Source: Phlyctochytrium arcticum
Lineage: Eukaryota > Chytridiomycota > Chytridiomycetes > Chytridiales > Chytridiaceae
Assembly (NCBI GenBank): GCA_025602905.1
Contig: JAHLKI010000005.1
Location: 1 to 64,000 of the forward strand
Direction of reading: 5' to 3'
DNA: 64,000 nt
Positions 43 through 64,000 of this stretch are shown here, in pieces. Positions within the stretch are counted from its first letter, which is position 1. Each line of letters begins with the position of its first letter. A model generated the notes under the pieces. It saw nothing but the letters and a program-made list of their open reading frames with translations. It was not told the origin of the DNA and searched no databases. The position numbers and the translations under genes were made by a program.

Positions 43-472
43 ATGTCCAAACCCACAATCATTTTTCACCTCCCATTGCCCAGCATGCACGCAAAAAGAC
101 GTTTGCATAGAAGTCAGGGAGGGGCGCCCAAAGCCTCGGTAAGTACATTTCAAGATCAACGGCACATACTGTCACTCACTTTGCGGTTTAAAGACAAAGC
201 CAACCAAGGCTTTTGAATGGAACGTTCACGCCGAGGAATTTCGCCCGGCTGCGGAAGTAAAACTGGTAAGCTTTTTGTAACGATGATTGTGAATACTTTC
301 TTACACTGTATAGCAGGCGGTCGCGGCAGCGGCGGAGCGATCCGAACTGAACCCGGACGCTGCCGAATTTGTTCCAATGGGACAATACTACCCGGCCCCC
401 TACATCATTCCTTGGCAGTTTGTGCCTATTTACTTCGTCCCGGTATATACTTACCACCCACAGTGCTTCTAA
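43..472 (+). CDS. Family A copy 1, three-exon small protein
   Basis: Exons are 43-138, 194-265 and 314-472; all junctions are phase 0 with GTAAGT/GTAAGC donors, giving 108 residues. Exon 1 carries the family motif TIIFHLPLP (with SM where most copies have IM). Exon 2 carries KAFEWNVHAEEFRPA. Exon 3 has AVAAAE, then LNPDAAEFVP and an aromatic, Pro-rich tail ending QCF. Introns are 55 and 48 bases. The start is the first ATG after a 5' UTR palindrome-like AGAATTTTCAATTCT at 22-36. The acceptor of exon 3 may be 3 bases later without changing frame. No signal peptide, known domain or catalytic motif was seen, so function is unknown. It belongs to the subfamily with a CF-ending tail, with the copies at 10613 and 14970. 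Confidence 0.75.
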
Positions 473-840
473 GCACTAGTATTTTCTCAATTAATACTAC
501 TAAAGAGCTTTTTTTTCAATGCTTGTATTTCATAGTACTGCAGAGTCGTGCATTTCAATACTCCGATCAACATTGAATGTATCAAGATGTAATCCCTTTC
601 GGTCGTACTCCACCTTGCTTCTTATCGTACGCATTGACTAAGTGAACGTCATGCGGGATTCGGTTCATGTTTCGGATAAAATCTGACCTGATGTAAAGTG
701 GAACTTCAATGCTGAGTTGATGGGGGTTTGTTCTGGTTCGTCAAGCCTCATCCATTCCTGAAACTAATAAAACCTCTATACAGCAGAGCTGCTGGTCAAA
801 TCGACGATGAGCTGACAAGGAATTCAACTTACAGTACATT
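473..840. other. Downstream region of family A copy 1
   Basis: No gene seen. It contains the start of the conserved family A downstream block (TACTAAAGAG..., then a segment near 590 resembling those at 5220, 11150 and 15560 with 'TCGTACTC'). It also contains 'GACTAAGTGAACGTCATGC' near 637, which recurs near 11191. Confidence 0.4.
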
Positions 841-877
841 TCTCGGAGACTTCGACTCTCGCTATGAGGTGCTGGCC
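841..877 (+). promoter_or_regulatory. Family A core promoter, degenerate
   Basis: TCTCGGAGACTTCGACTCTC followed by GCTATGAGG matches the family A promoter, but the TATA box (CTATAAAGG elsewhere) is altered to CTATGAGG. The AATCTTTACCCACCAGAATT leader follows at about 893-912. Confidence 0.5.
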
Positions 878-935
878 CCACCGCCAAGAAAAGAATCTTT
901 ACCCACCAGAATTCAGAATTCTTACAACCACAATC

Positions 936-1284
936 ATGTCCGCAAACAGTTTTTTCTCTGCCACTCGCTATCATGCATGCGCTCTCGAGACCCCACTTAC
1001 TGGTCAATGGGAAGAGTCCGAAAAGCTCCGGTAAGTCTATTGCAAGATCAACGGCACCAATGACCACTCACCACCTTACTATTGAGCAGAATGATACGGA
1101 AGACCTTGGGCAAGACCTACATGGCCAGAATATGGATGAAAGCGCGGAGAGCTGCTATTTGACGGAAGAGCAAGTTGAAGATGTCGGTGATGAGGAAGCC
1201 GAATATTTTTACACACACCCAATCCAGAAGCGCAGCCGTTGGCGAGGATCTATAACCAGCAGCAGGGTATATCCGGACTGTTAA
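936..1284 (+). pseudogene. Family A copy 2: damaged exon 1 joined to an acidic tail
   Basis: Exon 1 lies at 936-1030 and is followed by a good intron, 1031-1089 (GTAAGT...GAGCAG). Compared with other copies, exon 1 has a CATG duplication at 973-980 and a further 1-2 base shift near 950, so the first ATG (936) does not read the YWSMGRVRKAP segment. An internal ATG at 977 does. Spliced in phase 0 from there, exon 2 (1090-1284) reads an acidic 64-residue tail (DESAESCYLTEEQVEDVGDE...) unrelated to normal exons 2 and 3. The product would be about 82 residues. Either it is a decayed copy whose tail is fortuitous, or exon 1 has captured a new 3' exon. The second is possible but unproven. Confidence 0.45.
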
Positions 1285-1510
1285 TCGACATAGGACGGGG
1301 CAGAACATGCACATGCATCAACGCGAATTTGAACTTGGCATAAAACTGAGAAAATAAAAATGCAATTGTTGTCTAGTGTGTGATGTGTATGTATTTACAA
1401 CAAAAGGAATGTGAACTAGACTATTGTTTTTTCCTATCAGATTTTCTAAATTAAATTAGCCCTGTCGGCGTCTGCGTAAGGGTGTTTTTCGGGGTGGTGT
1501 GATGATGCCG
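1285..1510. other. Short gap between convergent genes
   Basis: No gene seen. It is AT-rich around 1340-1450 (AAAATAAAAATGC, TTTTTTCC), consistent with convergent 3' ends of the copy at 936-1284 and the minus-strand gene at 1511-2515. Confidence 0.3.
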
Positions 1511-3735: not shown

Positions 3736-4540
3736 CTCAAGTCCCTTCGGCCGAACGTTCGAAATTCCAAAAATCGAAGACGAGTGAATTTTGACAGGCG
3801 GCAGCGGCCAAGTCACGGCTCATTCCCCTGAATGACGTGATGCGATGACACATGCAACGTCCCCCGAGGGTCCTTTCGAATCCCGGTTTTATGGTTCCTA
3901 TGGACTTTATCCGGATTTTATTTCAGAACAAGGGCGGCAATTTATATCTGCATTTGCAGCAAATGACGGGAGTAAGATGGAAATTGAAAAATATAGTTAT
4001 GAGCATTCGAGGCGCATTATGCGTTTTTCCATCTTGATGTGAAAACTGGATCGTGCTTGAGTAAGCCAAGCTCGTTGCGCGTGTGGATCCAAAACAACGA
4101 AGCAAAACGTTCCTCGAAATTGACAAAAACGGTGAAGAATGAGTGCAATCAGCCAATGGATTATTCGGACGCGGGAAAAAAACCATGATGCCAGGACTGG
4201 ACAAGCTTAGTTTGGATAGATGTAAAAAGAATTTAAACCCGGAATGCATTTGAACTGTATCAGCTTCAAAGTTTATTTGCTGCAAGGGTCGCGGGGGTTA
4301 CCCATTTTAAACTTGCGCGTTTTGACAATCTACCGAGACGCAGAGGATTTTAAATGGAGATCTTAAGACGAAACGCTGCGCGGTCAAGCGCTTTAAATAT
4401 GACCAGACATTCTTATCCCAATATAAGCTTTCACAACATACCTTTATGTTGAGGGTTCCAAGAGATTTCTTCGATCCTGCTTTCGTAACGGGTCTAGGTG
4501 GCGTGTGAATTTTGCGGAATGAGATATGTTTCTATATGTG
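3736..4540 (+). promoter_or_regulatory. Conserved upstream block of a family A gene
   Basis: Starts around GGCCGAACGTTCGAAATTCC and includes GAATTTTGACAGGCGGCAG, CACGGCTCATTCCCC, TGACGTGATGCGATGACACA and a later AATATAAGCTTTCACAACAT before the core promoter. Homologous blocks lie at 28030-28830 and 59935-60745, also ahead of family A promoters. Shorter versions occur near 7480, 13340, 16545, 32700, 37250, 47127 and 62305. No coding gene seen. Confidence 0.6.
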
Positions 4541-4580
4541 GGTACATCTCGGAGAGTTTGACCCTCACGGCTATAAGGTA
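4541..4580 (+). promoter_or_regulatory. Family A core promoter
   Basis: GGTACATCTCGGAGAGTTTG, ACCCTCACGG and the TATA-like CTATAAGGT at 4571-4579 lie about 70 bases before the ATG at 4647. The same string precedes family A copies at 10521, 28821, 38901 and 60745. Confidence 0.65.
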
Positions 4581-4646: not shown

Positions 4647-5143
4647 ATGCAGCGCAAGACTATCATTTTCACCGTGTCACTGCCCATCATGCGTGCAACT
4701 GATACAAAGTATTGGACTATGGGAAGGGTCCCGAAAGCCCCGGTAAGTATATTCCGCGACAAATGGCAAATATGTCACTCACATCATGATTGTGCAGAAA
4801 AAGGCAAAAGCCTTCAAATGGAATGTGTACGCCAAAGAGTTTGTGCCGGCCAGTGAGCAGCGACGGGTAAGTTAATCGTACAGAGGATTGCGAATATCTA
4901 CTAACTTTGCTTGTAAAGGCAACCGCCAACAATGCCACCGCCGCCCCTGCCGCCGAACCGGCGCTGAACCCATTCGCCGAGGAATTTATACCCGAACACC
5001 TGCATGTTGTACATACTCCAAACTCGCCAGTACATACTTCATACCCACCTGTATATACTCCATTTCCCTATCCCGTCTGCTACGGCCAATGGCCGTGTAT
5101 ATATTTGTATATAGTCCCCATAGCCTACCACCAGTATTATTAG
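4647..5143 (+). CDS. Family A copy 3, three-exon small protein
   Basis: Exons 4647-4742, 4798-4866 and 4919-5143 are joined in phase 0 and give 129 residues. Exon 1 has KTIIFTVSLPIMR and KYWTMGRVPKAP. Exon 2 has KKAKAFKWNVYAKEFVPA. Exon 3 has AAPAAEPALNPFAEEFIP and the tail motif PVYTPFPYPV, then CYGQWPCIYLYIVP, ending QYY. Splice sites are GTAAGT/GTGCAG and GTAAGT/GTAAAG. All family motifs are present and the complete promoter lies upstream, so this is one of the copies most likely to be functional. Its acidic patch and aromatic tail are conserved in the family, but no known domain is recognised. Confidence 0.8.
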
Positions 5144-8640: not shown

Positions 8641-9045
8641 TGCCGACTGCTGAGTGTACTATCAATCGTCTATCTCGCTTCTGTGCTGCAAGGACAGGCG
8701 CGAGACAATTTGCGTCTCGAAGTCACTATGCTTTCGGCCTTCATCAGGCTGGACACGGAAATGTTTCGCATGGCCACGCGTATGTCCAAGCCGGTGCCGG
8801 AGACATTCTATACCGCATCTTTTACGATCTACCAACCATATGCGAAGGTTTTGACTTTACCGAGATCCTTCTTCCGCCGGGAACTCAACCGTCCATGCCT
8901 GCTAGTGGAACGGCAGCAGTCAAGATCCTCTCGACAGAAAAAGACCACTTAATGGCGTCGTACCTATCGTACGATTTTGTCTCCAAGGCCTTCCATCGCA
9001 TCAACAGGCCAAAAAAGGTGTGGGCCCCCTCCCACCAAAACCACC
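8641..9045 (+). other. Open region between family A copies 4 and 5
   Basis: A long frame runs 8640-9170, but no family motif or recognised domain is present before the exon 1 at 9046. It may be spacer or an unrecognised tail. Confidence 0.25.
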
Positions 9046-9382
9046 ATGAAGACCGTAATTTTTCGTCTCCCACTCCCCATTATGCATTCAGCCAACTACC
9101 AGCACCGGCCCTGGGGAGGGGGCCCCAAAGCCCGGGTAAGTCCATTTCAAGATCAATAGCGCATAAGTGACTCACATTGCGGTTCAAAGACAAAGGCATC
9201 AAAAGCCTTTAAGTGGAATGTGCTTGCGAAGGAGTGTGTCCCGTCCACGCAACATAAGCCGGTAAGCGTTTCGTAATGTCGATTGTGAATACTTTCTCAC
9301 ACTGTCTCGGGATGTATAGCAGGTTCAGCAAGCCGCGGAGAGTTTGATCCTCGCTTTAAAGTGCCGGCCCCTGTTCGGATAA
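9046..9382 (+). CDS. Family A copy 5, exon 3 truncated by fusion to next promoter
   Basis: Exons 9046-9135, 9190-9261 and 9320-9382 (phase 0) give 74 residues. Exon 1 has KTVIFRLPLPIMH but lacks YWSMGR (RPWGGGPKAR instead). Exon 2 has KASKAFKWNVLAKECVPS. Exon 3 starts QVQQAAE and then runs at GCGGAG directly into AGTTTGATCCTCGCTTTAAA, the core promoter of the next copy, so it encodes SLILALKCRPLFG and stops. The fusion point has the microhomology GGAG shared by exon 3 (GCGGAG) and the promoter (TCGGAGAG). The protein lacks the LNPLAEEF motif and the aromatic tail. It may be expressed but is probably not equivalent to complete members. Confidence 0.5.
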
Positions 9383-9493: not shown

Positions 9494-9914
9494 ATGCCTC
9501 ATCAAACCAACTTCTCAATCCCGTTGCCAATTATGCGGGAAACTAATCATTCATACCTGGACCATGGGAAGAGTCCTAAAAGCCCAGGTAAGTGTACTTT
9601 GTGACGGTTGGCACACATATCACTCACCTTGCGGTTTAAAGAAAAAGCCAACCAAGGCTTTCAGGTGGAACTCGAATGCAGTTCCGTTCTTTCTCGGATG
9701 CGGCGGGGCACCCATGGGTGGGCAGTTGGCCCCTGCCGCCGAGCCACGAGGACTTAACCCTCTGGCCCCGGAATTCATCCCGGATGGGCAGGCGCTGCCG
9801 GCGGTGCAGCCGGTACAGCCGGTGTATATAGTGTACACACCAATGTACTTTTTTGGACCGGGCCCTCTTGTACAGTTGTATATAGTCCCCGTCGTTGTCC
9901 CTCCTTTCTTTTGA
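9494..9914 (+). pseudogene. Family A copy 6, exons 2 and 3 fused without intron
   Basis: Exon 1 (9494-9587) reads HQTNFSIPLPIMRETNHSY and has one extra base before TGGACCATGGGAAGAGTC. Intron 1 is 9588-9641 (54 bases, a multiple of three). Exon 2 (TKAFRWNSNA) passes straight into exon 3 (APAAEPRGLNPLAPEFIP) with intron 2 missing. The tail (PVYIVYTPMYF...QLYIVPVVVPPFF) ends at 9914. A 116-residue frame starting at ATG 9564 reads through the unspliced intron to the same stop, so a shorter intron-retaining product is possible. Confidence 0.5.
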
Positions 9915-14359: not shown

Positions 14360-14934
14360 ATGACGAATGGAGTGAGACAATACGCCAGATGCTCCACCAA
14401 AAACAGCCTATCCAGTCTGAAAACTCGGGCGTCGAACAAGAATTTCTGCGATCCATGCATTCACATACTCAACCAACAGCACAAAAAATCCTCTTCTATC
14501 GCCTACTCCAAGTCATCCACTGGAATAGACGCATCTTGTGATATCCTCGGCCGTGCAGAAGTGATTCCGGTAAGAGGCGATGAATTGTGAAATGCAAATC
14601 TCAACCGTAACTAACAATTTGACAGAAGAAAGCGGATCAGAGCGGAACAACACCCCAACCATTATTTTCCTCACAACTGAATGAGAAGGATTTCAGAAGC
14701 TCCAGTAAGTGTGTTCCGTGACCCACGGCGGAATGTGCCACTTACATTGTGATTGAGTAGAAAAGAGCAAAAGCCTTTCAGGGGGATGTGCACGCCGAGG
14801 AGTTTGTGCCAGCCGAAGTGAAGACAAGGGTAAGTTTTGGTCACGATGATTGTGAATCCCTGCTAACTCTCTTTGTATAGCCAACATCCAACGAGGCTGC
14901 TGTTGCCGCCGAACCTCATGGCGCTGAGAAATAA
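14360..14934 (+). CDS. Family B exon spliced toward a family A remnant (chimera)
   Basis: B exon 14360-14569 (70 codons) reads TNGVRQYARCSTKNS, NKNFCDPCIHILNQQ and SSTGIDASCDILGRAEVIP, then a GTAAGA donor. After a 56-base intron, the mini-exon 14626-14704 (KKADQSG...) runs into an internally deleted family A exon 1 (CCAACCATTATTTTCCTC ... AGAAGCTCCA) ending at a GTAAGT donor. Family A exon 2 (14761-14829, RAKAFQGDVHAEEFVPAEVK) and a short exon 3 (14881-14934, SNEAAVAAEP) follow. The splice phases of the B and A parts do not match, so the A exons would be read in another frame. Exon 3 is fused to the 5' UTR of the copy at 14970 and stops at AAATAA. Coding status of the chimera is uncertain. 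Confidence 0.4.
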
Positions 14935-18101: not shown

Positions 18102-18175
18102 CGGCCCCCGTTCAGAAATTAGAGTTCTTTACCTCTAGAATTTTGAATTCTATAACCTACCAAAGAATGCCTCGC

Positions 18176-18298
18176 ACAATCATCATTTCAATCTCCTTCC
18201 CCATAATGCGCACAAACGATTTCAGTTACTGGACGATTGGCAGATTCCTCCAGCTCTCTGAAAAATCTTTTGTCCCAAAACAACACTTTAGACCATAA
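18176..18298 (+). pseudogene. Family A copy 10, exon 1 only
   Basis: ATG 18176 reads PRTIIISISFPIMR and SYWTIGR, then loses the donor and passes into SEKSFVPKQ, an exon-2-like end, stopping at 18298. It lies directly upstream of a second exon 1 (18308). The downstream copy has no core promoter of its own between the two. Confidence 0.55.
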
Positions 18299-18648
18299 AC
18301 TCGATAAATGTCTCGTAGCATCATCTTTTCCATTCCTCTACCTATTATGCGATCGGTTCATTCCCAATACTGGAGAATGGGCAGCGCGAGCAACGCTCCA
18401 GTAAGTATATCCCGACACCTAAGGTTAACATGTCATTTACCTTGCGATTGACCAGAAACCTCGAAAGGCCTTTCAGAAAAACCCTTTGTACCTAACGATC
18501 TGCAACCAGCGCCGGTAAGGCTTCTTCCGTGACAATGGTTTTAAATGCTGGCTAACGCTGTTATTGCAATGCTTAGATGAGCGAGAATGTCGCCCCAGCG
18601 GCCGAGTCAACGGGCACTGAGGGCCTAAATCCATTGGCCCCGAGTTCG

Positions 18649-18884
18649 TGCAGCGGGCTCGTGGTTCGCTGCGCATTGTCCGCACCACTGCGCAAACAGC
18701 GCAGTGCCGTGCCACATCACACGTGTTGTTTTGTTTTTCTTTTTGTATATCCCATCCTGCACTGTACATTTTCAGACTCTTTACGCTTTCTCTTTACTCT
18801 GCGCTAAAGCAATACACAACCCGACTCACGCACCCTGGGAAGGTGCATTACCGTCCATACCACTTTTTACCCGAAAACGCTACA
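18649..18884 (+). repeat. Gypsy-1 5' LTR
   Basis: 236 bases, TG...CA ends, with a hairpin GCACCctgggaaGGTGC at 18830-18846. Confidence 0.95.
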
Positions 18885-38137: not shown

Positions 38138-38270
38138 GTAAGATCGACGTTTTTCGAGATATTAATCTCGTCCCAATCTAACAATTTGACAGAAGAAAGC
38201 GGCTCAGAGCCTCCCATTGCCAATTATGCGCTTGAGAATTTAAAATTCTTTGCCTACGACGAATTTAACA

Positions 38271-38483: not shown

Positions 38484-38524
38484 GCTGAGGAACCATCCTT
38501 AGCTCACGGAATCGCTTTGTCAAA

Positions 38525-38940: not shown

Positions 38941-39019
38941 CCGCCCCCCGCAATGGAAAATAAATCTTTACCCTTGAGAATTTTAAATTCTTTTCATACG
39001 ACTCTACGACGATTCAATC

Positions 39020-42000
39020 ATGCGAAATCAGATATTCATCTTTTGTCTCCCGCTAGCTATAATGCGATCGAGGAATTACAATCATCCCCGCATGGGAGGG
39101 GTCCCAGAAGCCCCGGTAAGTGTGTTCTGTGACCGACAGCACATATATATCGCTCACCTTATGACTGAGTAGAAGAAAACTTCCAAGTTCCATTGGAATG
39201 TCAATGCGGAGGAATTCGTTCCCGCGTGTCAAAAGGAGCCGGTAAGCTTTGTCGCAAGGAATAGTTGTGAATGCTAAAAATAGCGTGATAATCTTCTAGA
39301 TGGATGGATGGATGGATAGCACCACACGTTCTCGTTCGCGCAAGGTAGTTCACACGCTATGTATTGTTAGGTCCAACCTCTCAAACAGAGGTCTGGCATC
39401 GACTCTATATGTACACAACTGGGACACAACTTCGACCGCTAATATAACTACATTTGGCAATCGACTGCGCAAACTAATCTGACATGTCACTTCCACTGCT
39501 GCCCTGCTACCACTGCTGCCAGGCTACATCACAATACTCCCCCTAACCTGCATGCAGTCCGCATAACTTTCGCAGGATGTCGTTGCGTGCTCTTGGAAAT
39601 GGCTTGGTAAGGGAATCGGCTACCATCTGATCCGTGGGACAGTACTTGAGCACGATCTGGCCATTGTCCACGCATTCTCTTGTGAAGTGGTATCTGACGT
39701 CGATGTGCTTTGTCTTTTGATGATCCACCGGGTTGTGAGTCATGGCGATAGCTGCCTTGTTATCCTCGTAGATGGTGATCGGTGCGGGGTTTGGGTTCTT
39801 CGGTGTAAGAAGCGATGCTGCAAAATTCCGTAGCCACAATGCTTCCTTTGATGCTTCGGCTAGCGCGACATATTCCGCCTCTGCGGTTGATTGCGCAGTC
39901 GTTCTTTGTCTCTGGGACTTCCACGAGATAGCTCCCCCGTTCATCAGAAATACGTAGCCACTCATGCTTCTTCTCGTATCCGTACACTTGGCATAATCTG
40001 CGTCTGAATAGCCGACCACCTCCTTGCTGTTTGCTGAGCCGTAAACTAGCTTGAGGTTTTTAGTGTGTTTCGCGTAACGTAGAATTCGGACAACTGCATC
40101 CCGGTGCGACTTGCGGGGATTCAACAAGAACTGAGATTCTTTGGATACTGGATAGGCCAGATCGGGTCTTGTTGCCATCACTAGGTACATCAGACTTCCC
40201 ACCATGGATTGGTACTCCTTGGCATCGACTGCTTCCTCCAGCTCATTGTTGAATAATGCTACCTTGTGATCCATCGGTGTCGTGATTCCAGGAGTATCTT
40301 GTAAGTTAAATCGATTAACAATGTCGTCAACATACTTCTCCTGACTTAGTGATATGGTCCGCTTCTCTCGATCCCTGACGACTTGAATTCCCAGTATGTA
40401 AGACAATTCTCCCATATCCTCCATCTCAAATCGTTCCGTTAAACCACTCTTGATCATTTTCATTTCCTCAAGGTTGAGCGTGCAAATGGTGAGATCATCC
40501 ACGTAGAAGGATATCATTCCACTAACTTTTCCTTGCTCTTCCAACCGTATGTAGAAAGCCGAATCGAAGGGTGACGGGGTGAAACTCAGGGAACGCAAAA
40601 ACTCATCGATCGTCTTATTCCATAAGCGGGGCGACTGTTTTAGACCGTATATGCATTTGTTCAGGCGAACATATCTCTTGACTCCGTTGATGATAACGAC
40701 CATATAGATTTCCGTATCAAGATCACTGTTCAGAAAAGCTGTCACTACATCCATCTGATGTATCTCCATGTCCAAGTATGCTGCCACCGCCAACATCACT
40801 CTCATCGATGTGAATTTCACTACTGGAGCATGCGTTTCATCAAAGTCAATCCCGGGCCGTTGGCTGAAACCTCTGGCTACTATTCGCGACTTGCATTTCT
40901 TGATCGTGTGATCCGGGTTCCTCTTGACTCTGTACACCCACTTTGAGTCGACAATGTAGCATCCAACAGGCAAGGCGTTTGGCTCTATGAATGTCCATGT
41001 CCCATTCTTCTCATGAGAATTCAACTCCTTCTCCATTGACTTCTGCCATTCAGCCTTGTGCTTCGACTTCATGGCTGCAGCATATGTCTTTGGCTCATCA
41101 ATGTCGTCTATCGGCTCTGTGGCAAATGCTTCTGCGGTAACTTCTTGCTCGAATTCCTTCAATGCATCCAGATGTAGGAGATTACTATAGGGCTCCCAAG
41201 TTGGCTCATCATCGGCAACCCATTTCACCAAGTAGCTGGTAGATCGGTCCTTCTCAATCCGTTTAGCAAGAATATAGTCCACTTCGCATTCCTCTTCTTC
41301 CGTCGCATCCGTTATATGATCGGCTTCATTGAATCTCACGTCGCGGGATTCAAACACTTCTTCAGTTTCTTCGTCATATAAACGATACGTGAGCTGCTTT
41401 GCATGGGAATATCCGAGTAGTCGAAATGGTCCATCGGCCCGCTTGGCTAATTTCTTTGGTCGCGTTCGGTGAGCAACGGGAACATGAACAAAACATTCAC
41501 TCCAAAGCACTCGCAGATGGTGAATTTTTGGTTTTCTACCAAAGAATCTCTCAAAGGGCGTATCATAGTCAATCACTCTACTTGGCGTTCTTCGTCGTAG
41601 ATAATTCACCGTGACTGCAACCTCCCCCCACAACTTGAGCGGCATTCCATGGTGATGAATGATGGCTCTAGTTTGATTCAATAGGGTGCGGTTGTACTTC
41701 TCCGAGATCGCATTTTGTTGCGGTGAATATGGTTGAGTAGGTATGACTTGAATTCCTTCGGCCTCTGCCTCTTGAAGCAACTCCTTGTTCATATACTCAC
41801 CACCGTTATCGCATCGTAACTCCTTAATCTTCTTGCCGTGTATTCGCTCTACATATGCCTTGTAGCTTCGCCAATTTGCTGTTGTTTCGTCTTTCATTTT
41901 GAGTAAATAACTACTTGGATATCTTGACTATTCGTCAATGAACGTCAGGATATAAAATTTCTCTCCCAGAGAAGCAAGATCAACTTGCAACAAGTCGGTA

Positions 42001-44649
42001 TGGATTCTCTCTCATAAGTCCTTCGCTGGTCTCCCATTGACGTTGTTGAACGGTAATCTGTGCCCTTTTCCAAAATGACAACCCACGCAGGACGCCATAT
42101 GCTGTTCTATTGTGTTGACCGTGAGTCCTAAGCCATAAGTTGAATTTGCTTTTTCAAGCGCTTTGATCCCTGGGTGCCCGAAGCGTAGGTGATATGTTCG
42201 AAGTTTAACGACATTCCGGTCCTCTCTTTTCCCGACATTTCCTTGGCCACTGATTTCTGCATTGCACTGTCCATCCGTTCCGTAGTGATTTCCGAAGTAT
42301 ATGCTTCCGGATCAAACTCGGTATATCCAACTAGGAACGGCAAGTTTTGATGTACTCTCACATCAAGCAACTTCTCTTTCGTCTTGGTAAGATAAAGTCC
42401 AGAATCAGGCGAGTCATTTCCGGCAAAACAAGATCCAACTCCATCAGGTAGTTGCTGAGTAGATATCAAATTTCTGGGGTACTCAGGGGCATAAAGTACG
42501 TTGTAAATTTGATTTTCTTCTTGGGATCTTTCGGGTTATGAACAGTAGGACTACCAAACTCCAATTGCCATGGATGGCGCGCTCCCAACTTTTCCTGCGG
42601 CGATTGGTATGGGTTCCTTGAGTGGCTTAAAGTCTTCCACTAGGAACTTGTCCTTCATGATGTGTGCAGTTGAGGCTGAGTCCACAGCGATTGAGTAGGA
42701 AGATTTTCGATGAGTGGCAAGCGTTAAGTTTGCTTCCACTTGGGTATGATTGGCCTCGGCATTATCATATCCGCCTTTCTGTTCTTTGAACGCTTTGAAG
42801 TCGGGACAATCTCTGGCGAAGTGATCTTCCTTCTGGCATACGTAGCATCCTCTACTTTGTCGTTGGCTAAATCCACCACGTCGACCTCTCTTGCCGCGAC
42901 CTCGACCATGCCCAGAACCGCCGCGCAGCTGAGTATTATGCGCTTCTACTGACTGTTCCTTGCGATGGGGTTTGTCGACAATTTGCGTGTCATCTTGACG
43001 AAGTGCTGCTGACTTTAATGCCTCAATGTCTTCTAAGTTGCCACCGTGAGTATTGACGAGTTCTCTGATTCTCTTGTCCAGACCATGGAGGTAATGATGC
43101 TTTTGTTCATCCAGTGTCATCTTGGGTACTTGCATGACCAACTTGTCAAATGCATCGTTGTAGGCGACGACCGTTGTCTTTTGTTGAAGCTTGTCGAGCT
43201 TACTGCGGACAATCTGACCGTGTTCGGGAGGAACAAATCTTTTCAGCATACGTTCCTTCATATCCGACCAGCTCTCAACATCTTCTGCATCATCGCGCTC
43301 CTGTAGACTATTCCACCAGACATCGGCCGTCCCAGTAAGTTTGCTTGTTACAAATATAATTTGCCTTCGTCCTCCAGATCCGAGACACGGAAATAAAGTT
43401 CAACTTTCCGTATGAACTCAAATAAGGTGTGGGGTGCATGGATATTTCCTTCGTAAGTTTTCACAGCGTTACAGGTTGATCTCAGTAGGGAATTGTGCGT
43501 TGCGACTTGCGATGTCATGGATGCAACTGATCCTGTCATGGTTCCTCCTCGTGTCCGAAGTGGCAAGATATTTCCTGTCTCCTGATAGCCATCTTCGTGT
43601 CGCTCTCTAGCGCCATTCCTTCCTTGGGTTTCTTGACCCTGAACCACTAACTGTTGTATCAATTCTTTCAGTTGTGACATCTTGTCTTCCATTCGCTCTT
43701 GGCGATTCTCGAGTCGCCGATGATCTTCTTGGTTATAGGCACCTGCGTCGTAAAACTGATCGAGTCCGCCGCTCTCTCGTCGTCTCATATTGCCGCCCTC
43801 TGGCGCAATGTATCCACTCGCTGATGTGCTGCCCTCTGGCGCAACTTGACTACTTGTCTCATCCTCAGTGCCGCCCACTGACGGGTTGATTCGAGCAGAC
43901 TTTCTGCTACCGGTAGTCATTCTTCTTGGCGATAGATTCTTCTTGGGATCCTTAGCTGAGCTCTCTCTCTTTCTTGCGTGTGACTAAACACAGGGTTTCA
44001 TAACCTAACGTGATAATCCTCTAGATGGATGGATGAATGGATAGCACCACACGTTCTCGTTTGCGCAAGGTAGTTCACACGCTATGTATTGTTAGGTCCA
44101 ACCTCTCAAACAGAGGTCTGGCATCGACTCTATATGTACACAACTGGGACACAACTTTGACCGCTAATATAACTACATTTGGCAATCGACTGCGCAAACT
44201 AATCTGACATGTCACTTCCACTGCTGCCCTGCTACCACTGCTGCCAGGCTACATCACAATAAAAAACTCTCCATGTACAGGCAGTTGCTGCCCATCTGAA
44301 CCCCCTAGCGGCGGAATTCGTTCCCGCATGTCAAAACAAGCCGGTAAGCTTTGTCACAAGAAACAATTGTGAATACTTGCTGAAAACTCTCCATGTACAG
44401 GTAGCTGCCGCCGCGGCAGAACCTTACCTCAACCCCCTAGCGGAGCAGTTTGTACCATCTCTCAACCGTCCAACCATGACCACCGCGGTTGTGCCATCCC
44501 CGCCGCGGGCCGACACTTTTGGCCAACCACAACATGTATATATTTCTTACCACCCTGTATATACACCATTTCCCCTACCTTACTGCTACGGCCAATGGCC
44601 ATTTGTATATACTTATGTGGTTCCCATTGCCCCTCCCCACTATTATTAG
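39020..44649 (+). CDS. Family A copy 17, four exons, Copia element in an intron
   Basis: Exons 39020-39115, 39173-39241, 44281-44343 and 44401-44649 are all phase 0 and open, giving 158 residues. Exon 1 reads NQIFIFCLPLAIMRSRNYNH. Exon 2 reads KKTSKFHWNVNAEEFVPA. The third exon (AVAAHLNPLAAEFVPACQNK) is a hybrid with an exon-3-like start and an exon-2-like end. The last exon reads VAAAAEPYLNPLAEQFVP and the tail PVYTPFPLPYCYGQWPF, ending HYY. The intron 39242-44280 holds a complete Copia element in antisense, but donor GTAAGC and acceptor TGTACAG remain. Whether a 5-kb intron is spliced in this genome is unknown. Confidence 0.65.
39281..39536 (-). repeat. Copia LTR (3' LTR of the minus-strand element)
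   Basis: 256 bases with a (GATG)n run. Matches 44006-44261 except for about five substitutions. Confidence 0.9.
39543..42190 (-). pseudogene. pol: Copia Pol: integrase, chromodomain-like, RT, RNase H
   Basis: The main open part is 41897-39543 (784 residues). Numbered from MKDETT, it holds integrase DNGGEY at 30-35 and SPQQNAISEKYNRT at 58-71. A chromodomain-like segment (VDYILAKRI, YLVKWVADDEPTWEP, LKEFEQ) lies at about 204-251. RT runs from VDSKWVYRVK (316) with FYVDDLTI at 464-471. RNase H follows, with SDADYAKCTDTRRS and AQSTAEAEYVAL. Upstream in the same direction, to about 42190, the GAG-preintegrase motif (HLRFGHPGIKAL...CVGCHFGKGH) and IHTDLLQVD are readable but separated by in-frame stops TGA (after RPAKDL) and TAG (after FIDE). 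So the integrase start is broken while the RT part is intact. Confidence 0.85.
42551..43920 (-). pseudogene. gag: Copia Gag and protease region, frameshifted
   Basis: Two frames, 43920-43348 (190 residues, starting TTGSRKSARINPS; coiled-coil-like RRLENRQERMEDKMSQLKEL) and 43261-42551. The second has FVPPEHGQIVRSKLDKLQQK, an Arg/Gly stretch, zinc knuckle CYVCQKEDHFARDC and a protease-like AVDSASTAHIMKDK. A frameshift near 43300 separates them. The protease core reads DSA rather than the common DSG. A further frame at 42469-42128 continues the region out of phase. Confidence 0.8.
44006..44261 (-). repeat. Copia LTR (5' LTR of the minus-strand element)
   Basis: 256 bases, starts TAACGTGATAATCC on the + strand and ends ATCACAATA. 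Confidence 0.9.
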
Positions 44650-44654
44650 AAGTT

Positions 44655-47200: not shown

Positions 47201-47712
47201 TAATCCCCTCACGAACGGAATCGATGAGCCGATGACACATGCAAATTACCCGAGCCGGTGTCAAAAATTGTGGAGAACACAAATTACAGATCTGAAAAGC
47301 GGTGATATGGGTCTTGATTAAACGCAGCGGCTGTTTATTACCGGCCATACTGAAGTATACGAATTTGGCATTGTGATCGGTCTACTTTGTAAATGTCACA
47401 TCTGGTCTTGTCATAAATAAATAAAATGCAATGGCCCAGATTGACAGCAGCTGCCTTGGTACTTTTCACGCGACATTCTTGGCATCAGGGAATGACAAAT
47501 TGCAAAGACGCGTGTTGTCCGGTCGGGCCAAGTAGACGCGTTTCGCGTCAAAGGCTTTCAGCGCATTTGCATGTTAACCGTCAAAAAGTTATCCGTCACG
47601 GCTATTTGTTGAGGAGGCCCGCATCCAGGCTGCTGGCACCGCACAGGCTACGAGGGATGCAGCTCCGGGTCTTGGTGCAGGCCTCTCCACCTTTTTATTC
47701 CGCTTGCTATAA
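47201..47712. other. Intergenic region with ACGCGT sites
   Basis: Contains AAAGACGCGTGTTG near 47504, GTCGGGCCAAG and AGACGCGTTTCGCGTCAAAG near 47533-47552. The same arrangement recurs at about 62665-62725. A 99-codon frame at 47426-47725 has no family support. Confidence 0.35.
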
Positions 47713-47766
47713 TGCGATCGGGTGATTCTCAATACTGGACAATGGGGAGGGCCACAAAAAGCTCAA
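47713..47766 (+). pseudogene. Family A copy 18, 5'-truncated exon 1
   Basis: IMRSGDSQYWTMGRATKSS is readable up to the GTAAGT donor at about 47767. The region before LAIM is lost or shifted. A GGAGCAG acceptor follows at 47821, but the downstream sequence is not a recognisable exon 2. Confidence 0.5.
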
Positions 47767-47941
47767 GTAAGTATATCCGCAATTCGACGGCGTAATCGTT
47801 ACTTACCTTTTGATGGAGCAGAAGACTCGGTCGCAGAGCCCCACCGGGGTTGACACTCCTTGCCTGTATCGGGCCCATTCTGAAAACAGAAATTCTTTGA
47901 CTCTCAGAACTTGATATTCTTTACTGCAAACCTCCAAAACG

Positions 47942-48615
47942 ATGTCGTTTTCAACCACTATCCTTGCATATCCGCTTGCCATCATGCGCGCAAAACGCAA
48001 ATCTTACTGGTCAAATGGAAGGATTAGCCCAGGTAATTATATTACGAGATTGACGATACACATGTTACTTATCTTGTGATTATGCTGCAGAAGACGCTAA
48101 AGCTGGTCCATACAGCTTTTGACCGCCCTCGCCAAGTCATTTGGGCCAAAGTCTCCAAATACCTTCTCGTATATCTGACCGACTTTCACTACTCAGACTT
48201 GAGCATTGTGTCCGCTACCTCTCCAGTGCCCTTTCATCCGAACTGCCTGGTTTGCAATACCCTTTATGAAGTTCTGCCTATACCCCTGCGTACTCTTCAA
48301 AAAGCCAAAGGGAACTGGTCGCCCCCCGTTGCCGCGGGATGCACCGTTTGTAACACCGATCTAGCCGACTTCGCTATTGCTGAGGCCTCTTCTACGTATC
48401 TCGCCACGAGAAAGTATGTGCTCGCCGAAGATCTTTGGAGCTCCGAGCGGGCGGGTTGGGAAAATTGCACTGCTACGCCCCTACCACTTCACCGCGATCC
48501 GTGGAATGATACCCCGGCCGATCTGCTGAACTTTGAGAAAAGTGTTCGTACACCCACCGGACGCTACTGCCGCTTCCTAATGCCCAAGGAACATTGTCCC
48601 ATCATCCCAAGTTAG
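47942..48615 (+). CDS. Family A copy 19: exon 1 followed by a CxxC-containing ORF
   Basis: Exon 1 from 47942 reads TILAYPLAIMRAKRKSYWSN, with a base inserted near the SMGR codons, then a GTAATT donor at 48033. After the acceptor CTGCAG (48090), 48091-48615 is open for 174 codons and unlike any other family A tail. It has KVSKYLLVYLTDFHYSDLS, then two Cys pairs (PNCLVCNT and GCTVCNT) and an acidic, Trp-containing end. The phase does not fit the first ATG exactly, so the ORF might instead start near ATG 48082. The two CxVCNT repeats could bind metal (inference). A partial second copy of this sequence (CCGTATATCTTGCCGAC...) is at about 48760-48850. Confidence 0.4.
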
Positions 48616-50057: not shown

Positions 50058-50225
50058 ATGCCTGGCACAATTATCTTCACCATTTCGTTACCTATCATGC
50101 GCACGACCAGCAACACATACTGGAGCGGATTCAACTCCACTACTTTCCACTTTTACACTGTGTATATGTATACAGTTTCACGGCACCATCCTCACTTGTA
50201 CCAACCAGCGTACAATTTCAATTGA
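50058..50225 (+). CDS. Family A copy 21, intronless mini-gene
   Basis: A 55-residue frame: exon 1 (PGTIIFTISLPIMRTTSNTY, then WSG) is joined without an intron to a short aromatic tail (YTVYMYTVSRHHPHLYQPAY). Exon 2 and the LNPxAxEF motif are missing. It could be a deletion product joining exon 1 to exon 3. The frame is open and follows the family leader. Confidence 0.45.
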   Translation: MPGTIIFTISLPIMRTTSNTYWSGFNSTTFHFYTVYMYTVSRHHPHLYQPAYNFN

Positions 50226-50918
50226 ATGGCCAACGGATCATTTCAAGGACATCCGCAAGCGGGACACCCAACATTCGACAATCGGACGGGTTTTGGGACA
50301 CCAAGGACGATAGAAAGACATCCTCAGTATTTGCCAGCCCTCCATACTGGGCATTGTCATATAAGAAGGCGCAATCATTCCCCGAATGCAAGCGCAAACA
50401 TTACAAGACCCCGGAACCATCCTGACTGTTACAAACGTGACCAGGAAATCCCCCTCTCTGCTCTCCCCACCCTTCAGAAGAACACTACAGTACCTTCAAC
50501 AAGGATTCGTTGCTCATATCATCCGCGGTAACGGCCGTCAGAAAACTACTGCCGCTCATCGGGTAAGTCATCAGTGACAGGATCAAGTCTTTATTCATCA
50601 TGTACTCATTTCTCTTTGCAGCAACACCAACATTTTGGAAAAAAAAGCCCATCATACTGATACCCAAACCTCTCTCCAGCAGCCCAAACATCCTCGCCCA
50701 GACCCCAAGACCGAGTTCAAGAACTATCGTATCGTCTGGAACGAACGGGCCGCTCCCGTTCGCTTCCGAATCCACGCCATCGGAGAAAACCACTGCTACT
50801 CACCCGGTAAGTCATCAGTGACAGGTTCAAGTGTTATGCATCATGCACTCATACCCCCGTTCGAAAAAGAGAGTTCTTCAGCTCTCTGAAATACTTTTTC
50901 ACCAGCCAACAGTACAGA
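50226..50918 (+). other. Shuffled exons with an NYRIVWN module
   Basis: A frame from ATG 50226 (ANGSFQGHPQAGHPTFDNRT) is followed by splice-like sites. GTAAGTCATCAGTGACAGG occurs twice (near 50560 and 50807), with an acceptor TTTGCAG near 50622 between. The exon between them (about 50623-50806) contains HPRPDPKTEFKNYRIVWNER in one frame. This matches the 60-residue repeat DPKQDLGNYRVVWNPEE at 52.75-53.3 kb (other strand). No complete gene could be built. Confidence 0.35.
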
Positions 50919-51390
50919 ATGCCCGGAACGATAATTTTCACCATCCCATTACCTATCATGCGCACCACCAGCAGCACCTACTGGAGCATGGGCAGGCCAG
51001 CCAAGCATTCACAAGTAAGTATATTCCGCGACGGCGGGCATACAAGTGACTCATCTCGAAATTGAGCAGAAACAGGCCAAATCTCCTTCCGGTGGAATGT
51101 CGAATTTCTACCAGCTGCGCATCGGGTAAGTTTTTCGCAATGAATGATTATAAATACCTGCGCTAAGTCTGCATGTAGAGGTAGCGAAGGAGGAGACTGC
51201 CCCTGCTGCCGAACCCCCGCTGAACCCGTTGGCGAAAGAGTTCATCCCCGAAACCCCGCCGATTGTATATATCCCCTACCCATCTGTACATACCATTTAC
51301 CCAACTCCCTTTTGCGATGGCCAACGGCCATTTGTACATTACATGTACAATAGTGCCCGTAGTTTATCCCCAATATTATTGAAAATTTGA
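50919..51390 (+). pseudogene. Family A copy 22, frameshifted exon 2
   Basis: Exon 1 50919-51014 (PGTIIFTIPLPIMRTTSSTY, WSMGRPAKHSQ) is intact. Exon 2 51070-51125 is 56 bases, so it breaks frame (RWNVEFLPAAHR is readable out of phase). Exon 3 from 51181 reads VAKEETAPAAEPPLNPLAKE, then YIPYPSVHTIYPTPF; an extra base near 51345 shifts the end. It is very close to the second exon set of the copy at 60855. Leader is AGAGTTCTTCAGCTCTCTGA type. Confidence 0.6.
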
Positions 51391-51931
51391 TTTCCTTGAA
51401 TAAGGCGCCAATTTGCGCAACACAATACTCCGAGCAGGACTCAAAGTAACGAAATCCAACCCGTTCCGGTCGTACTCTGCATTGGCCCGCACCAAGTCTC
51501 GATTCAATCATGCGATATAGGTCAAAAAACGTCAATGTATCATAGTCAACCAAAGTATTCAATGCGATATCTTTAGGAAATTGTTGAATATGGACGCCTT
51601 TTCCCAGCTGCGCAATTTGATCTGGTTGCGGCCTCTGCTGGGCGGAAATGTGGTTCCTGTGGAAAACGAGGGCCTTGGTATAACGCCAAGACGTGCCTAG
51701 ACAAGGAGTAATTGAACTCATACACGGTCAGCGATGGCATGGCATATCAAGCAGCTCATCTTCTTCAATTCCACAACTTTTGTTCATCAATATTTAGCAA
51801 CTTTGATTCTAGTCACTAGATAGTATCAGGCCTCAGCTCGTTGCTAGGCCGTTTTTCATTAGCTGAAGTGTTGAAGCGCCTTTCGCATAAAAAAGGCGTG
51901 GACCTATGGTCCTTACATTGTAATTGAGTAG
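51391..51931. other. Downstream region, no gene seen
   Basis: Starts with the downstream block (AATAAGGCGCCAATTTGCGC, ACACAATACTCCGAGCAGGA), shared with 61590. Confidence 0.35.
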
Positions 51932-52146
51932 AGAAGAGCGAAAGGCTTTCAAAGGAATATGTATGCCGAGGTGTTTGTACCGGTTATCCAACATCGACGG
52001 GTACGTTTTTTCGTAACGAGGATTGTGCATACTAACGTTACATCGAGAATCTCTAGCCTGAGGAGGAGGCCGCGGCAGAGCCACATTTAAATTCTGTGGG
52101 AGAAACCATCGTCCCTGCAAGTTCGCAGATTGAATGTACACTATAG
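51932..52146 (+). pseudogene. Family A copy 23, exon 1 missing
   Basis: Exon 2 51932-52000 (RRAKGFQRNMYAEVFVP, W replaced by R), intron 52001-52056 with a GTACGT donor, exon 3 52057-52146 (PEEEAAAEPHLNSVGET), which stops early. Nothing like exon 1 precedes the first acceptor. CCCACATATACCCCACATA-type repeats after the stop are the out-of-frame remains of the VYTP tail. Confidence 0.55.
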
Positions 52147-52739
52147 ACCCATTATATCCCTTATCCCACATATACCCCACATACCGTCTAGCTCACATAT
52201 ACCCCACCCCATACACCGTACCCTTCTGTCACCGCCAGCATAATGGTATTGATGGGCGGGCTGGCTTTTTCAAGTACTTTGTCAGTTACGTGTTACTCAA
52301 ACTATACATTTCACACTCAAGTCCAAAGAAAACAGTAATATCAATACCCAACAACGAAAATATGATGATCATGAAAAAAAGCTTGTAAGAGTTTCAAGGA
52401 ACAGAAGTGGCGATTTTTAAAGACGGTAGGATGTAGACTTTCCAGATTGTGTCTTGTGAAAGTGACCTAGTTCTTGAGCAGTTGCCACTAGTTTGTCCTG
52501 GTTGGTTAGGAGTGCGGTCCTTGAGTACTCATGCAGAAAGAAAGGCAAATGTAAACTCTCAGTTCGGTGATCGATGAGTTATACTGCAAATACTATTACC
52601 ACGCACTTCTCGCCTATCCAGCGGTTGTCCGTGGCTCACAGATCTAACACTACATATTGGGCTACTCTAATCTGTACTCTAAAGCCTACTGGGAGTACGC
52701 AGTTCTAAAAAAGAACAAGTTGGGATGGGATAAAGCACC
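52147..52739. other. Intergenic region, no gene seen
   Basis: Contains tail remnants to about 52230 and otherwise no recognised motif. Confidence 0.3.
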
Positions 52740-53317: not shown

Positions 53318-53321
53318 CTTG

Positions 53322-53659: not shown

Positions 53660-53772
53660 TGGTAGCACCACCTTCGTGGTTTGATTGAAAACAAGGTCGG
53701 CTTTCCAATTTTGTTTTTGAAGTTTTTGAACTTTACCCTTCTCTCACGTATCCGTTCTTTCTTTCCAGTATC

Positions 53773-61579: not shown

Positions 61580-61584
61580 GAATT

Positions 61585-61970: not shown

Positions 61971-62934
61971 TCCACAATGATAGATGGTATCAATCTTGGT
62001 CATGGTCAAAGAAGCGGCTTGTTTATAAACGATAGCTCTTGCTGGCAGTATCCGATCCCCGAAAAACGACTTCATCCAGTCTTAGTGAGTAGGTGGATGC
62101 GTCCAGCCTGTTCAGGATTGTCAGTGGCGATTGGCTGTCAATTTAAATCACAGAAGGCTGTAATACAGACAAATACCAAGTTTGTTGATACTAGCCAAAT
62201 ACATATATGGCCTGGGCAGAAAAAGCCGTTGATGGTCAAACGGCGGAATGAATATTTGTTGCCCTCGTCGGATCTGGTGAATAATTAAGGTTTCAAAGGC
62301 CCTTTGGTCGAACGTTCGAAATTCCAAGAATCGAAGATGTGTGAATTTTGACAGGCGGCAGCGGCAAAGTCACGGCTCATTCCCCTTGATGACGTGATGC
62401 GATGACACATGCAAATGACCCCAGCGTCGTCGGAGCAGCTGTGAACTGTGAATACAGTGCATCGATGGCATTTCATTATTACCGGTCATAGTGCATTATA
62501 GGTGATCTGCCTGATGGTAGTGTGTGTGTCAATGGCAGATTTGGTCTCGTCGTTCATGGAACATGCAATGCGAAAGTAGACCCCGACTGACAGCGGCTGG
62601 CTACGATTTCTCAATGGGTATTTTGCACGCGACATACTCGCAATCAGGCGATGACAAATTGTAAAAGACGCGTGGTGTCCTGGCAAGCGGAAGCCAAGTT
62701 AGACGCGTTTCGCGTTAAAGGCTTTCTGGGTAAGTGGATCGATGGCGCAGCACACTGAAATTGGCCCGTGCCGTGACGGACACTTTCCGCGACACGCGTC
62801 AAAACTGTCTCCTGTCAAAACCCGCTCACTATCCGAAATTCATTCGCCAAAAACCTGCTCTCCCATCACCGGAGAAGTTGACCCTCGCCACAACAAAGAT
62901 ATCTCCACGCCATGAACTCCTAACCCATATTATG
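61971..62934. other. Intergenic region with upstream-type motifs
   Basis: Holds GTCGAACGTTCGAAATTCCA (near 62305), GACAGGCGGCAGCGGCAAAG and TGATGACGTGATGCGATGAC, plus ACGCGT sites near 62669, 62702 and 62795. A 103-codon frame (61977-62288) is unsupported. Confidence 0.35.
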
Positions 62935-63072
62935 CCAACAAGCGCACGATCTTCTACTGCGTGGCCTTCCAGTCCAACGGGTCCGTTTCCCGTACCCCAT
63001 TGGCAGGTATGGGGGCCCATCAGCCTCCCCGTACTGGTCAATGGGGAGGGCCCCAAAAGCCGAGGGTAAGTT
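62935..63072 (+). pseudogene. Family A copy 25, exon 1 remnant
   Basis: YWSMGRAPKAE is readable just before a GTAAGT donor (near 63066), but the frame from ATG 62935 reads PVLVNGEGPKSRG instead. The N-terminal motif is scrambled. An intron with TTTATAG follows. Confidence 0.4.
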
Positions 63073-63143
63073 GTTTTTAAGAGTTACACAAGCTATTGAA
63101 TGCTCATCGTTTACTTTATAGGATCCGTCAATTAGCCGCCATG

Positions 63144-63717
63144 GATAGGCAGGCGAACGTGGGCGAATCATCGGGGATCACACAAAGTAAGTTCTTTTTG
63201 TGGTTTGATTAGATAGCTTCTCAAATATTTACTGATACGTTTATCTAACAGGCACGAAGCTCACAAAGGACACAGGGGGAAAACCCCGACTTCAAGTCTC
63301 CAATTACTTTCAAGACTGCGGCGGAGACATTACCGGTCCCTCGCCAGACCAGAGAAGCGAACCCTTTCTCTGCCCGAATGGCAATCATGCGCGCAACCAC
63401 CACAACATACTGGACCATGGGAAGGGTGACCATCAAACACCAAGTAAGTACACTCCGCGACGGACGGCACTTGTATATCACTCATGCGTCGGAATCGAGC
63501 AGAAAAAGGTTCGCAAACTTGACTGGAATGTGCATGTGTCCAGCCGTTCGTTAGAACGTACATGCCCCAGCATTTGTACTCGCTGCTCAAAAGGAGCCGG
63601 TAAGCTTTGTCTCAAGAAATAATTGTGGTTACCCGCTAACTCTCTCCATGTACAGGCAGCTGCAGAACCTCACCTCAACCCCCTGGCGGATGAGTTTGTG
63701 CCAATCCCAAAATGACC
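63144..63717 (+). CDS. Family A copy 26 within a multi-exon chimera
   Basis: Exon-like pieces are about 63122-63189 (ATG 63144: DRQANVGESSGITQ), 63252-63444, 63502-63600 and 63657-63715. The second piece is open in two frames from its acceptor. One contains ARMAIMRATTTTYWTMGRV, the family A exon 1 signature; the other (NYFQDCGGDITGPSPDQRSE) is the one reached by phase 1 splicing from ATG 63144. Then follow exon 2 (KKVRKLDWNVHV, with a 30-base duplication before PAFVLAAQKEP) and exon 3 (AAAEPHLNPLADEFVPIPK, then stop). Its real reading frame is unresolved. Confidence 0.4.
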
Positions 63718-63766
63718 TAATTTTACCAATGCCGGCGGAACCAGCAGATTCCTGGCTTTACCCTTG

Positions 63767-64000
63767 AGAATTTTAAATTCTTTCAAATACAACCATGGCT
63801 CGCTCAACATTTCTTTTCTCTTTGCCTCTGGCAATCATGCGGGCAAAAGACAAGAAATACTGCTCAATGGGGAGGCCCTGGTAAGTCTTTTCCGCGACGG
63901 ATGGCAGAGTATGTTACCAACCTTGTGCTTGAGTAGAAGAAAGCTTTCAAGTTTTATTGGAATGTGAATGCGGAGGAGTTTATCCCCGCCGCTCAAAAGG
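63767..64000 (+). pseudogene. Family A copy 27, cut by the window end
   Basis: The palindrome at 63767-63781 is followed by AT-rich leader and ATG 63795. Exon 1 63795-63880 reads RSTFLFSLPLAIMRAKDKKY and CSMGRP. It is 86 bases, so splicing at GTAAGT (63881) to exon 2 (63937 on: KKAFKFYWNVNAEEFIPAAQ) joins TG to A and gives TGA. A 7-10 base deletion at the exon 1 end explains this. No core promoter is seen just upstream. The copy continues past the window. Confidence 0.55.

Follow-up and report, generated by a model that had tools for sequence, protein, structure and literature searches.

A clustered, exon-modular family of small PAM2-motif genes in the chytrid Phlyctochytrium arcticum

The first 64 kb of contig C5 (JAHLKI010000005.1) of the chytrid Phlyctochytrium arcticum, referred to here as the window, carry a clustered, multicopy family of short three-exon genes in which exons 2 and 3 encode PAM2 motifs, the peptides that dock on the MLLE domain of the poly(A)-binding protein (PABP). 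PAM2 is best known as a docking site carried by larger regulators, among them ataxin-2, eRF3 and the LARPs, and PABP is a central player in protein synthesis. Judging from sequence, the genes are likely to constitute a lineage-specific, birth-and-death family of small, probably disordered, multivalent PABP ligands made of PAM2 motifs. This reading draws on the PAM2 identity of the exons, on purifying selection acting on the coding frames, on the modular arrangement of the exons, and on the presence in the genome (31.48 Mb, 91 contigs) of one MLLE domain with a preserved contact surface.

Extent of the family and selection on its coding frames

A DNA profile built from 10 copies matched the window in 35 pieces, of which 34 lie on the forward strand and one on the reverse strand (30470-30384), and gave no match on the reversed window. 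All pieces reached E <= 3.4e-4 except the weakest (38209-38246, E 0.035). Once merged by hand, they correspond to about 30 copies, in agreement with a preliminary description made from the letters alone, which had counted about 27. The five copies considered intact in that description, starting at 43, 4647, 10613, 14970 and 26466, were all found to splice to open three-exon proteins through introns of phase 0, as proposed there; in copy 26466 the automatic model halted in exon 2, and exon 3 was placed by hand. Full open models were also obtained for copies 28940, 49033 and 60855. The automatic finder is incomplete, having missed that third exon as well as the whole of two deposited genes on contig C9 (P0002 and P0003). 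The encoded proteins are small, about 100-170 residues, and combine a conserved N-terminal segment from exon 1 (IIFxIPLPIMR...YWTMGRVPKAP) with an aromatic, proline-rich tail contributed by the last exon.

Eight deposited P. arcticum "hypothetical proteins" (P0001-P0008) are members of the family with exons largely in common, and deposited models with the same two donors exist for four of the five intact copies. P0004 is identical to copy 43 in every letter, and spliced copy 4647 is contained at 100% identity in P0001, whose start lies 111 bases upstream. The other models show differences: P0007 (copy 10613) has acceptors one or two codons off plus an extra 3' exon; P0006 (copy 14970) starts within exon 1 and uses an earlier exon 3 acceptor; P0002 also starts within exon 1; P0008 is without exon 1, and P0005 has an extra 3' exon.

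The three-exon picture given earlier holds but was incomplete, since the cluster continues over C5:0-106.4 kb, a second one occupies C9:2.3-33.7 kb, and the number of exons and of PAM2 motifs is higher in some members. In a six-frame search of the genome with a composite protein probe for exons 1 and 2, 53 of 54 matches fell inside the two clusters, the remaining one being at C1:765713 (E 0.066); this count and that of the six-frame PAM2 search given below are lower bounds, as only the best candidates were scored. A dispersed repeat was rejected on the basis of this confinement. No subtelomeric location is claimed: both clusters lie near contig starts, yet four consecutive TTAGGG units are absent from the assembly, and no telomere repeat was seen by eye among the contig ends inspected.

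The coding frames are under purifying selection, as the preliminary description had suggested. The ratio of non-synonymous to synonymous differences (pN/pS) in the coding frames was 0.49 (95% bootstrap interval 0.39-0.61; 67 ungapped codons, from exon 1 in 6 copies and the exon 2 and exon 3 motif blocks in 10), compared with 0.76-1.74 for the three blocks in the two wrong frames and with a mean of 1.02 (standard deviation 0.08, lowest of 50 runs 0.86) in a neutral simulation of exon 1. A gapped, protein-guided alignment of 10 copies (45 pairs) gave a Jukes-Cantor omega of 0.25; synonymous divergence was close to saturation and, for exon 2 taken by itself, could not be computed. The family thus behaves as coding, and the ratio near 1 expected of passengers of a repeat was not observed. 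Third codon positions varied most in 99.5-100% of 200 bootstraps, and splice sites, starts and stops are retained in copies with nearly saturated third positions.

These results bear on an alternative in which the present copies are idle, decaying passengers of a local segmental repeat that descend from one or a few real ancestral genes. Several observations point in this direction. Only about 8 of the approximately 30 window copies have a full open model; a Ty3-type element has split one copy, and two further pieces flank a Copia-like element. Sequence outside the exons was copied along as well: the conserved upstream block at 4538 has six matches with at most three mismatches (the others at 10516, 28826, 38900 and 60747 on the forward strand and 30508 on the reverse strand), with none in 100 shuffles, and the common upstream blocks include, by eye, a TATAAAGG/TATAAGG-like element. 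Moreover, the divergence of the two inner introns, 0.37 and 0.35 compared with 0.62 and 0.59 for shuffled sequence (8 copies, from the window plus C5:64788), is less than that of third codon positions (0.58, 10 copies). Constraint or copying is therefore not confined to the protein; the conservation of introns, which are some 50-60 bases long, may stem from splicing signals or from gene conversion. Nevertheless, we regard the passenger explanation as unlikely, given the contrast of pN/pS with the wrong-frame and neutral controls, the splice sites, starts and stops kept despite near-saturated third positions, and the annotation of eight members by the depositors.

PAM2 identity of exons 2 and 3 and the candidate partner

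The preliminary description had recognised no known domain in these proteins, a view that the Pfam results overturn. PAM2 (PF07145) was matched by hmmscan in all five spliced window copies, four of them over the curated cut-off of 20 bits, and in all seven of P0002-P0008, six of them over it; three of the latter correspond to copies 43, 10613 and 14970, and the two sets overlap to that extent. P0002 contains three PAM2 stretches according to Pfam, and in 12 scans, which covered 9 distinct genes, no family besides PAM2 attained its cut-off. An unrecognised domain was accordingly rejected. A PDB sequence search with one copy (chains of at least 20 residues) returned a best E of 0.3, to an unrelated entry.

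The canonical PAM2 consensus is LNxxAxEFxP (PMC7356810), and a refined definition specifies a hydrophobic residue at position 3, Pro or Val at 5, Ala at 7, Phe at 10 and Pro at 12 (PMC2854688). Exon 3 (LNPxAxEFxP) is assigned as a canonical PAM2, and exon 2 (KAFxWNVxAEEFxP) as a variant carrying Phe at position 1 together with Trp at position 3 (W3). Most exon 2 copies agree at F1, N4, V5, A7, F10 and P12 with PAM2-C of eRF3, F76-x-P78-N79-V80-H81-A82-x-x-F85-x-P87 (PMC2854688). Since exon 2 of copy 26466 is itself a plain PAM2 (ALNPFAEPFVP, followed by GLNPLAQEFIP as the second motif of this copy), exons 2 and 3 represent one type of unit. By hand count over five copies, the two motifs are spaced about 27-31 residues apart from position 3 to position 3.

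On the coding strand, 23 strict PAM2-like matches were counted by hand in the window and 53 over C5:0-114k plus C9:0-40k; they were retained from 89 raw matches over 197.5 kb after removal of antisense shadows, matches outside copies and those with Arg or Gly at position 3, and the reversed control of the same 197.5 kb gave 5 raw matches. The antisense of an LNPxAxEFxP coding stretch resembles a degenerate PAM2 (xNSxAxGFxP), for example at 9778, 15322 and 26816 on the reverse strand; such cases do not enter the counts.

A single MLLE match was found in the genome (C1:164898-165089; PF00658, 96.5 bits), in an open frame that reads as a PABP by eye. It aligns with the MLLE of human PABPC1 (E 1.3e-22) and, with numbering anchored on KITGMLLE as 580-587, 15 of the 16 PAM2-contacting residues listed in PMC2854688 are identical, I588 being replaced by Met. 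Dissociation constants of known pairs of this kind range from 0.2 to 40 uM (PMC9249222).

Some features speak against PAM2 identity or against PABP as the partner. Copy 4647 (17.4 bits) and P0008 (19.4 bits) fall under the Pfam cut-off. Motifs across the copy alignments and the motif list agree with the refined definition, although some deviate: exon 2 of copy 14970 is without F10, exon 2 of copies 10613 and 49033 is without P12, and exon 3 of copy 28940 has Tyr at position 10 and no P12; exon 3 of copy 49033 has Trp at position 10. The residues named for position 3 in the excerpts of PMC2854688 are Leu and occasionally Pro or Phe, not Trp, and the Trp of the known PAM2w sits at position 10 (PMC7356810). 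W3 is also present in other PAM2-like genes of the P. arcticum genome. On the side of the partner, the MLLE search read unspliced frames and could have missed an MLLE divided by an intron, and only three of the five pocket residues given in PMC7356810 are kept, T576 and P600 being changed. A co-variation of W3 with this altered pocket was considered and dropped, the residues of the Leu3 pocket according to PMC2854688 being kept except for I588 to Met.

The W3 of exon 2 and the altered pocket would fit an alternative in which the PAM2 likeness is real and the partner is a protein other than PABP, and there is a precedent for such switches in the PAM2L of Upa1, which binds Rrm4 and not Pab1 (PMC9249222). 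We find this improbable, more so than decaying passengers, because only one MLLE was found in the genome, 15 of its 16 contact residues are kept, and exon 3 is canonical. Furthermore, PAM2L of Upa1 and UBR5 has an acidic stretch and FxxP spacing (PMC9249222), whereas the P. arcticum motifs show the canonical FxP spacing with no acidic stretch before the core by eye.

Exon modularity, relatives and a possible role in PABP titration

Of 39 candidates scored in a whole-genome, six-frame search with PF07145, 21 were over the cut-off, 9 on C5, 10 on C9 and 2 on C1, two of the 21 passing only with their neighbours in frame. In the C9 cluster, some loci repeat the PAM2 exon and contain up to five or six PAM2-like motifs. 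At C9:25562-26476 the profile segment consisting of intron 2 and exon 3 is repeated in tandem, with as many as five units. The automatic model of C9:25559-26447 comprises six exons and five PAM2-like motifs, of which one is degenerate, and its last exon crosses a likely intron; a further AFNPLAPDFVP occurs there in another frame. P0002 likewise has six exons, exon 1 and five more, with every junction in phase 0 and at a GTAAG donor: its exon 2 is of the W3 type (FQWVVHAAEFVP) and is followed by GLNPNAKPFVP, ALNPLAPIFVP, ALNPLAPVFVP and a degenerate ALEPLAPEVF. In the window, the model of copy 60855 has four PAM2-like motifs, in which W3 alternates with L3. The inner PAM2 exons can duplicate without breaking the frame because they are symmetric (0-0), and multiplication of such exons is the simplest reading of the C9 arrays. 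The 93% identity between C9:2652-3034 and C9:25717-26099 indicates recent duplication or conversion.

A second PAM2 family with W3 motifs (GWNLEAKEFVPSW, FVWNPQAPEFVPSW) was noticed at C10:853.5-854.9k (reverse strand), C1:2390848-2391331, C1:2666735-2666863 (reverse strand) and C1:2775977-2778966. The C10, C1:2390848 and C1:2775977 members have a hydrophobic N-terminal segment that looks like a transmembrane segment by eye, and the C10 member (P0019) shows, also by eye, an RG-rich part and a CCCH-like C-terminus; in a protein search its only match at E <= 0.001 was itself. The similarity of exon 1 to the C10 gene (YWTMGRVPKAP against YWLKSRVEKAP) had a score reached by 14 of 2000 shuffles, and its scores with two C1 relatives were reached by 540 and 879 of 2000. 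That exon 1 descends from the C10 gene is taken as a lead only and is not claimed, the scores of the C1 relatives being common in shuffles.

A protein profile search of a database of 5.8 billion proteins, in which the best 8000 candidates by word sharing were scored, returned 18 proteins at E <= 10, namely the eight from P. arcticum and ten others (P0009-P0018). These ten have 71-241 residues and different N-termini, and inspection by eye shows between two and about five PAM2 motifs in each; of the two scanned with Pfam, P0009 has four PAM2 stretches and P0012 two. The exon 1 segment is shared by none of the ten. PAM2 arrays are thus not unique to P. arcticum and may form a wider, uncharted class; the three-exon family appears to be unique to it within the reach of this one search. 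In the open-access PMC literature, neither a paper on this family nor a description of a clustered family of dozens of near-pure PAM2 gene copies, or of a PAM2 with W3, was found. The PAM2 peptide itself is known; what is unusual is its amplification in clustered genes.

Likenesses to known PAM2 proteins are accompanied by differences. eRF3 (GSPT1) also carries two sites, PAM2-N and PAM2-C, in one N-terminal segment, but these overlap, whereas those of the family stand apart on separate exons, and PAM2-C has Pro at position 3 in place of W3 (PMC2854688); in addition, eRF3 has a C-terminal translational GTPase, of which the family has no Pfam match, its stop codon following the tail. Ataxin-2 has LSm and LsmAD domains, likewise unmatched in the 9 distinct genes scanned. 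Plant CID class A/ERD15 proteins are small PAM2 proteins of 120-170 residues with other conserved elements such as PAE1 (PMC4574140), in contrast to the dozens of clustered copies, usually with two or more motifs, in P. arcticum. Upa2 and Upa1 of Ustilago are fungal and have several PAM2 or PAM2-like motifs, four PAM2 in Upa2, but act as scaffold or adaptor of endosomal mRNA transport and contain dimerisation, GWW-motif and FYVE parts (PMC9249222). No CID class A/ERD15 or Upa protein appeared by name among the matches of the profile search. LARP4 and LARP4B have a Trp-bearing PAM2, with Trp at position 10 and not 3 (PMC7356810). Finally, short PAM2 peptides suffice to recruit PABP and alter mRNA fate, as reported for tethered peptides in mammalian reporters rather than for a natural gene family (PMC5118804).

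If the P. arcticum proteins are PABP ligands, each short exon after exon 1, with its phase-0 introns on both sides, would supply one PAM2 motif, and the proteins, presumably expressed and disordered, would bind PABP via MLLE at two or more sites per molecule. Two sites some 27-31 residues apart could bind one MLLE in turn, as in eRF3, or bridge two PABPs on one tail. Small proteins with PAM2 as their only recognised domain would occupy MLLE and bring the tail to PABP, and could be competitors of eRF3 and of further PAM2 ligands, cross-linkers of PABP on poly(A) tails, or both, with a possible effect on translation or mRNA decay. Gene copy number together with exon copy number would set dose and valency.

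Clustering, turnover, many broken copies and restriction to one species would also be explained by a conflict-driven family, either PABP-directed selfish genes or counter-measures against parasites, and the variable number of docking units and a first exon found in no relative elsewhere by the one profile search would agree with this. Average selection is purifying and not diversifying, neither a toxin nor a partner gene nor a drive phenotype is known, and plain tandem duplication also accounts for the clustering; we therefore give this origin the least weight among the alternatives.

Returning to multivalent PABP ligands, a broader proposal, to which we would give slightly less than even credence, is that PABP docking has become gene-amplified and exon-modular in this fungus. 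Dozens of clustered genes would have as their only evident job the presentation of two to about six PAM2 peptides, duplication of symmetric exons would set the number of motifs, and the cell, or a selfish gene, would titrate PABP by copy number; a second amplification would have occurred as the W3-type, membrane-anchored-looking arrays on C10 and C1. A clustered, near-pure PAM2 family with fast turnover would represent a natural experiment in PABP titration and would show how a short linear motif is amplified through exon duplication, and the W3 variant, if it binds, would widen the definition of PAM2.

Copies and mobile elements in the window

The copies and pieces of the family are collected in Table 1.

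Table 1. Copies, exons and pieces of the PAM2 family in the 64-kb window.
Feature	Position	Strand	Basis or remark
Copy 43 exon 1 (MSKPTIIFHLPLPSMH...PKAS), donor GTAAGT in phase 0	43..138	+	Model, identical to P0004
Copy 43 exon 2, PAM2 variant FEWNVHAEEFRP (F1, W3)	194..265	+	Gene model, motif list
Copy 43 exon 3, PAM2 ELNPDAAEFVP with aromatic/Pro tail and stop	317..472	+	PF07145 26.8 bits, cut-off 20
Degenerate copy, exon 1 region	950..1091	+	DNA profile; no gene model
Conserved upstream block, TATAAGG-like element directly 3' (by eye)	4538..4562	+	Mismatch search, alignment
Copy 4647 exon 1	4647..4742	+	Model; P0001 starts upstream at 4536
Copy 4647 exon 2, FKWNVYAKEFVP	4798..4866	+	Only Pfam stretch of the protein, 17.4 bits, below cut-off 20
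Copy 4647 exon 3, ALNPFAEEFIP with tail and stop	4919..5143	+	Gene model
Two degenerate pieces	8321-8515, 8530-8653	+	DNA profile; no model
Copy with open exons 1-2, exon 3 without PAM2	9038..9381	+	DNA profile, model
Degenerate copy with GLNPLAPEFIP	9511..9892	+	DNA profile, six-frame PF07145; no model
Copy 10613	Exons 10613-10705, 10760 (or 10766)-10831, 10892 (or 10889)-11062	+	P0007; PF07145 24.1 bits
Degenerate copy	14676..14917	+	DNA profile; no model
Copy 14970	Exons 14970-15062, 15122 (or 15128)-15199, 15261 (or 15243)-15473	+	P0006; PF07145 27.2 bits
Exon 1 fragment	18168..18243	+	DNA profile
5' part of copy (profile 17-353), adjoining Ty3-type long terminal repeat element	18315..18651	+	DNA profile
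3' piece (profile 330-496) after Ty3-type element	25628-25762	+	DNA profile
Copy 26466	Exons 26466-26561, 26618-26695, 26758-26937	+	PF07145 32.3 bits, 2 stretches
Copy 28940, repeated VYTPHxP tail	Exons 28940-29035, 29093-29161, 29214-29447	+	Automatic model
Sole minus-strand piece of the window (exon 1)	30384..30470	-	DNA profile
Three degenerate pieces, first weak (E 0.035), last retaining FKWNVHAEEFRP	38209..38717	+	DNA profile, motif list
Piece of copy (profile 3-257, FHWNVNAEEFVP) directly before Copia-like element	39016..39272	+	DNA profile
Piece directly after Copia-like element (profile 193-496), PAM2 YLNPLAEQFVP with tail	44308..44654	+	DNA profile
Two degenerate pieces	47691..48147	+	DNA profile
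Copy 49033	Open exons 49033-49128, 49184-49270, 49331-49507	+	Automatic model
Exon 1 fragment	50063..50126	+	DNA profile
Copy whose exon 1 is open; PPLNPLAKEFIP in exon 3, no PAM2 in exon 2	50916..51389	+	DNA profile, model
Degenerate copy	51912..52188	+	DNA profile; no model
Copy 60855, five exons	60855-60950, 61006-61068, 61122-61205, 61261-61323, 61382-61579	+	Automatic model over two adjoining pieces
Further pieces	62997..64000	+	Last (63802-64125 in C5) spans window edge; cluster continues to 65.3 kb

The Ty3-type element extends over 18648-25643, contains Retrotrans_gag and is bounded by long terminal repeats (LTRs) of 237 nt (18648-18884 and 25407-25643). It is a young insertion into a family copy, since its LTRs are 100% identical and the profile ranges of the flanking pieces abut. 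The Copia-like element (39281-44261 by reading frames; LTRs of 256 nt, 98% identical) lies between two family pieces whose profile ranges overlap, and the piece that follows it may therefore be a second copy or a partial duplication; a further HLNPLAAEFVP is found beside this piece at 44296.

Positions 53689-59511 are occupied by a second Ty3-like element, whose pol frame is interrupted, and a lone gag-like frame at 33692-34957 scores below the cut-off. The window also contains an inverted pair, 3344-3661 and 45364-45660, 99-100% identical and about 42 kb apart, and tandem repeats at 46095-46505 and 52847-53321 with units of 139 and 176 bases.

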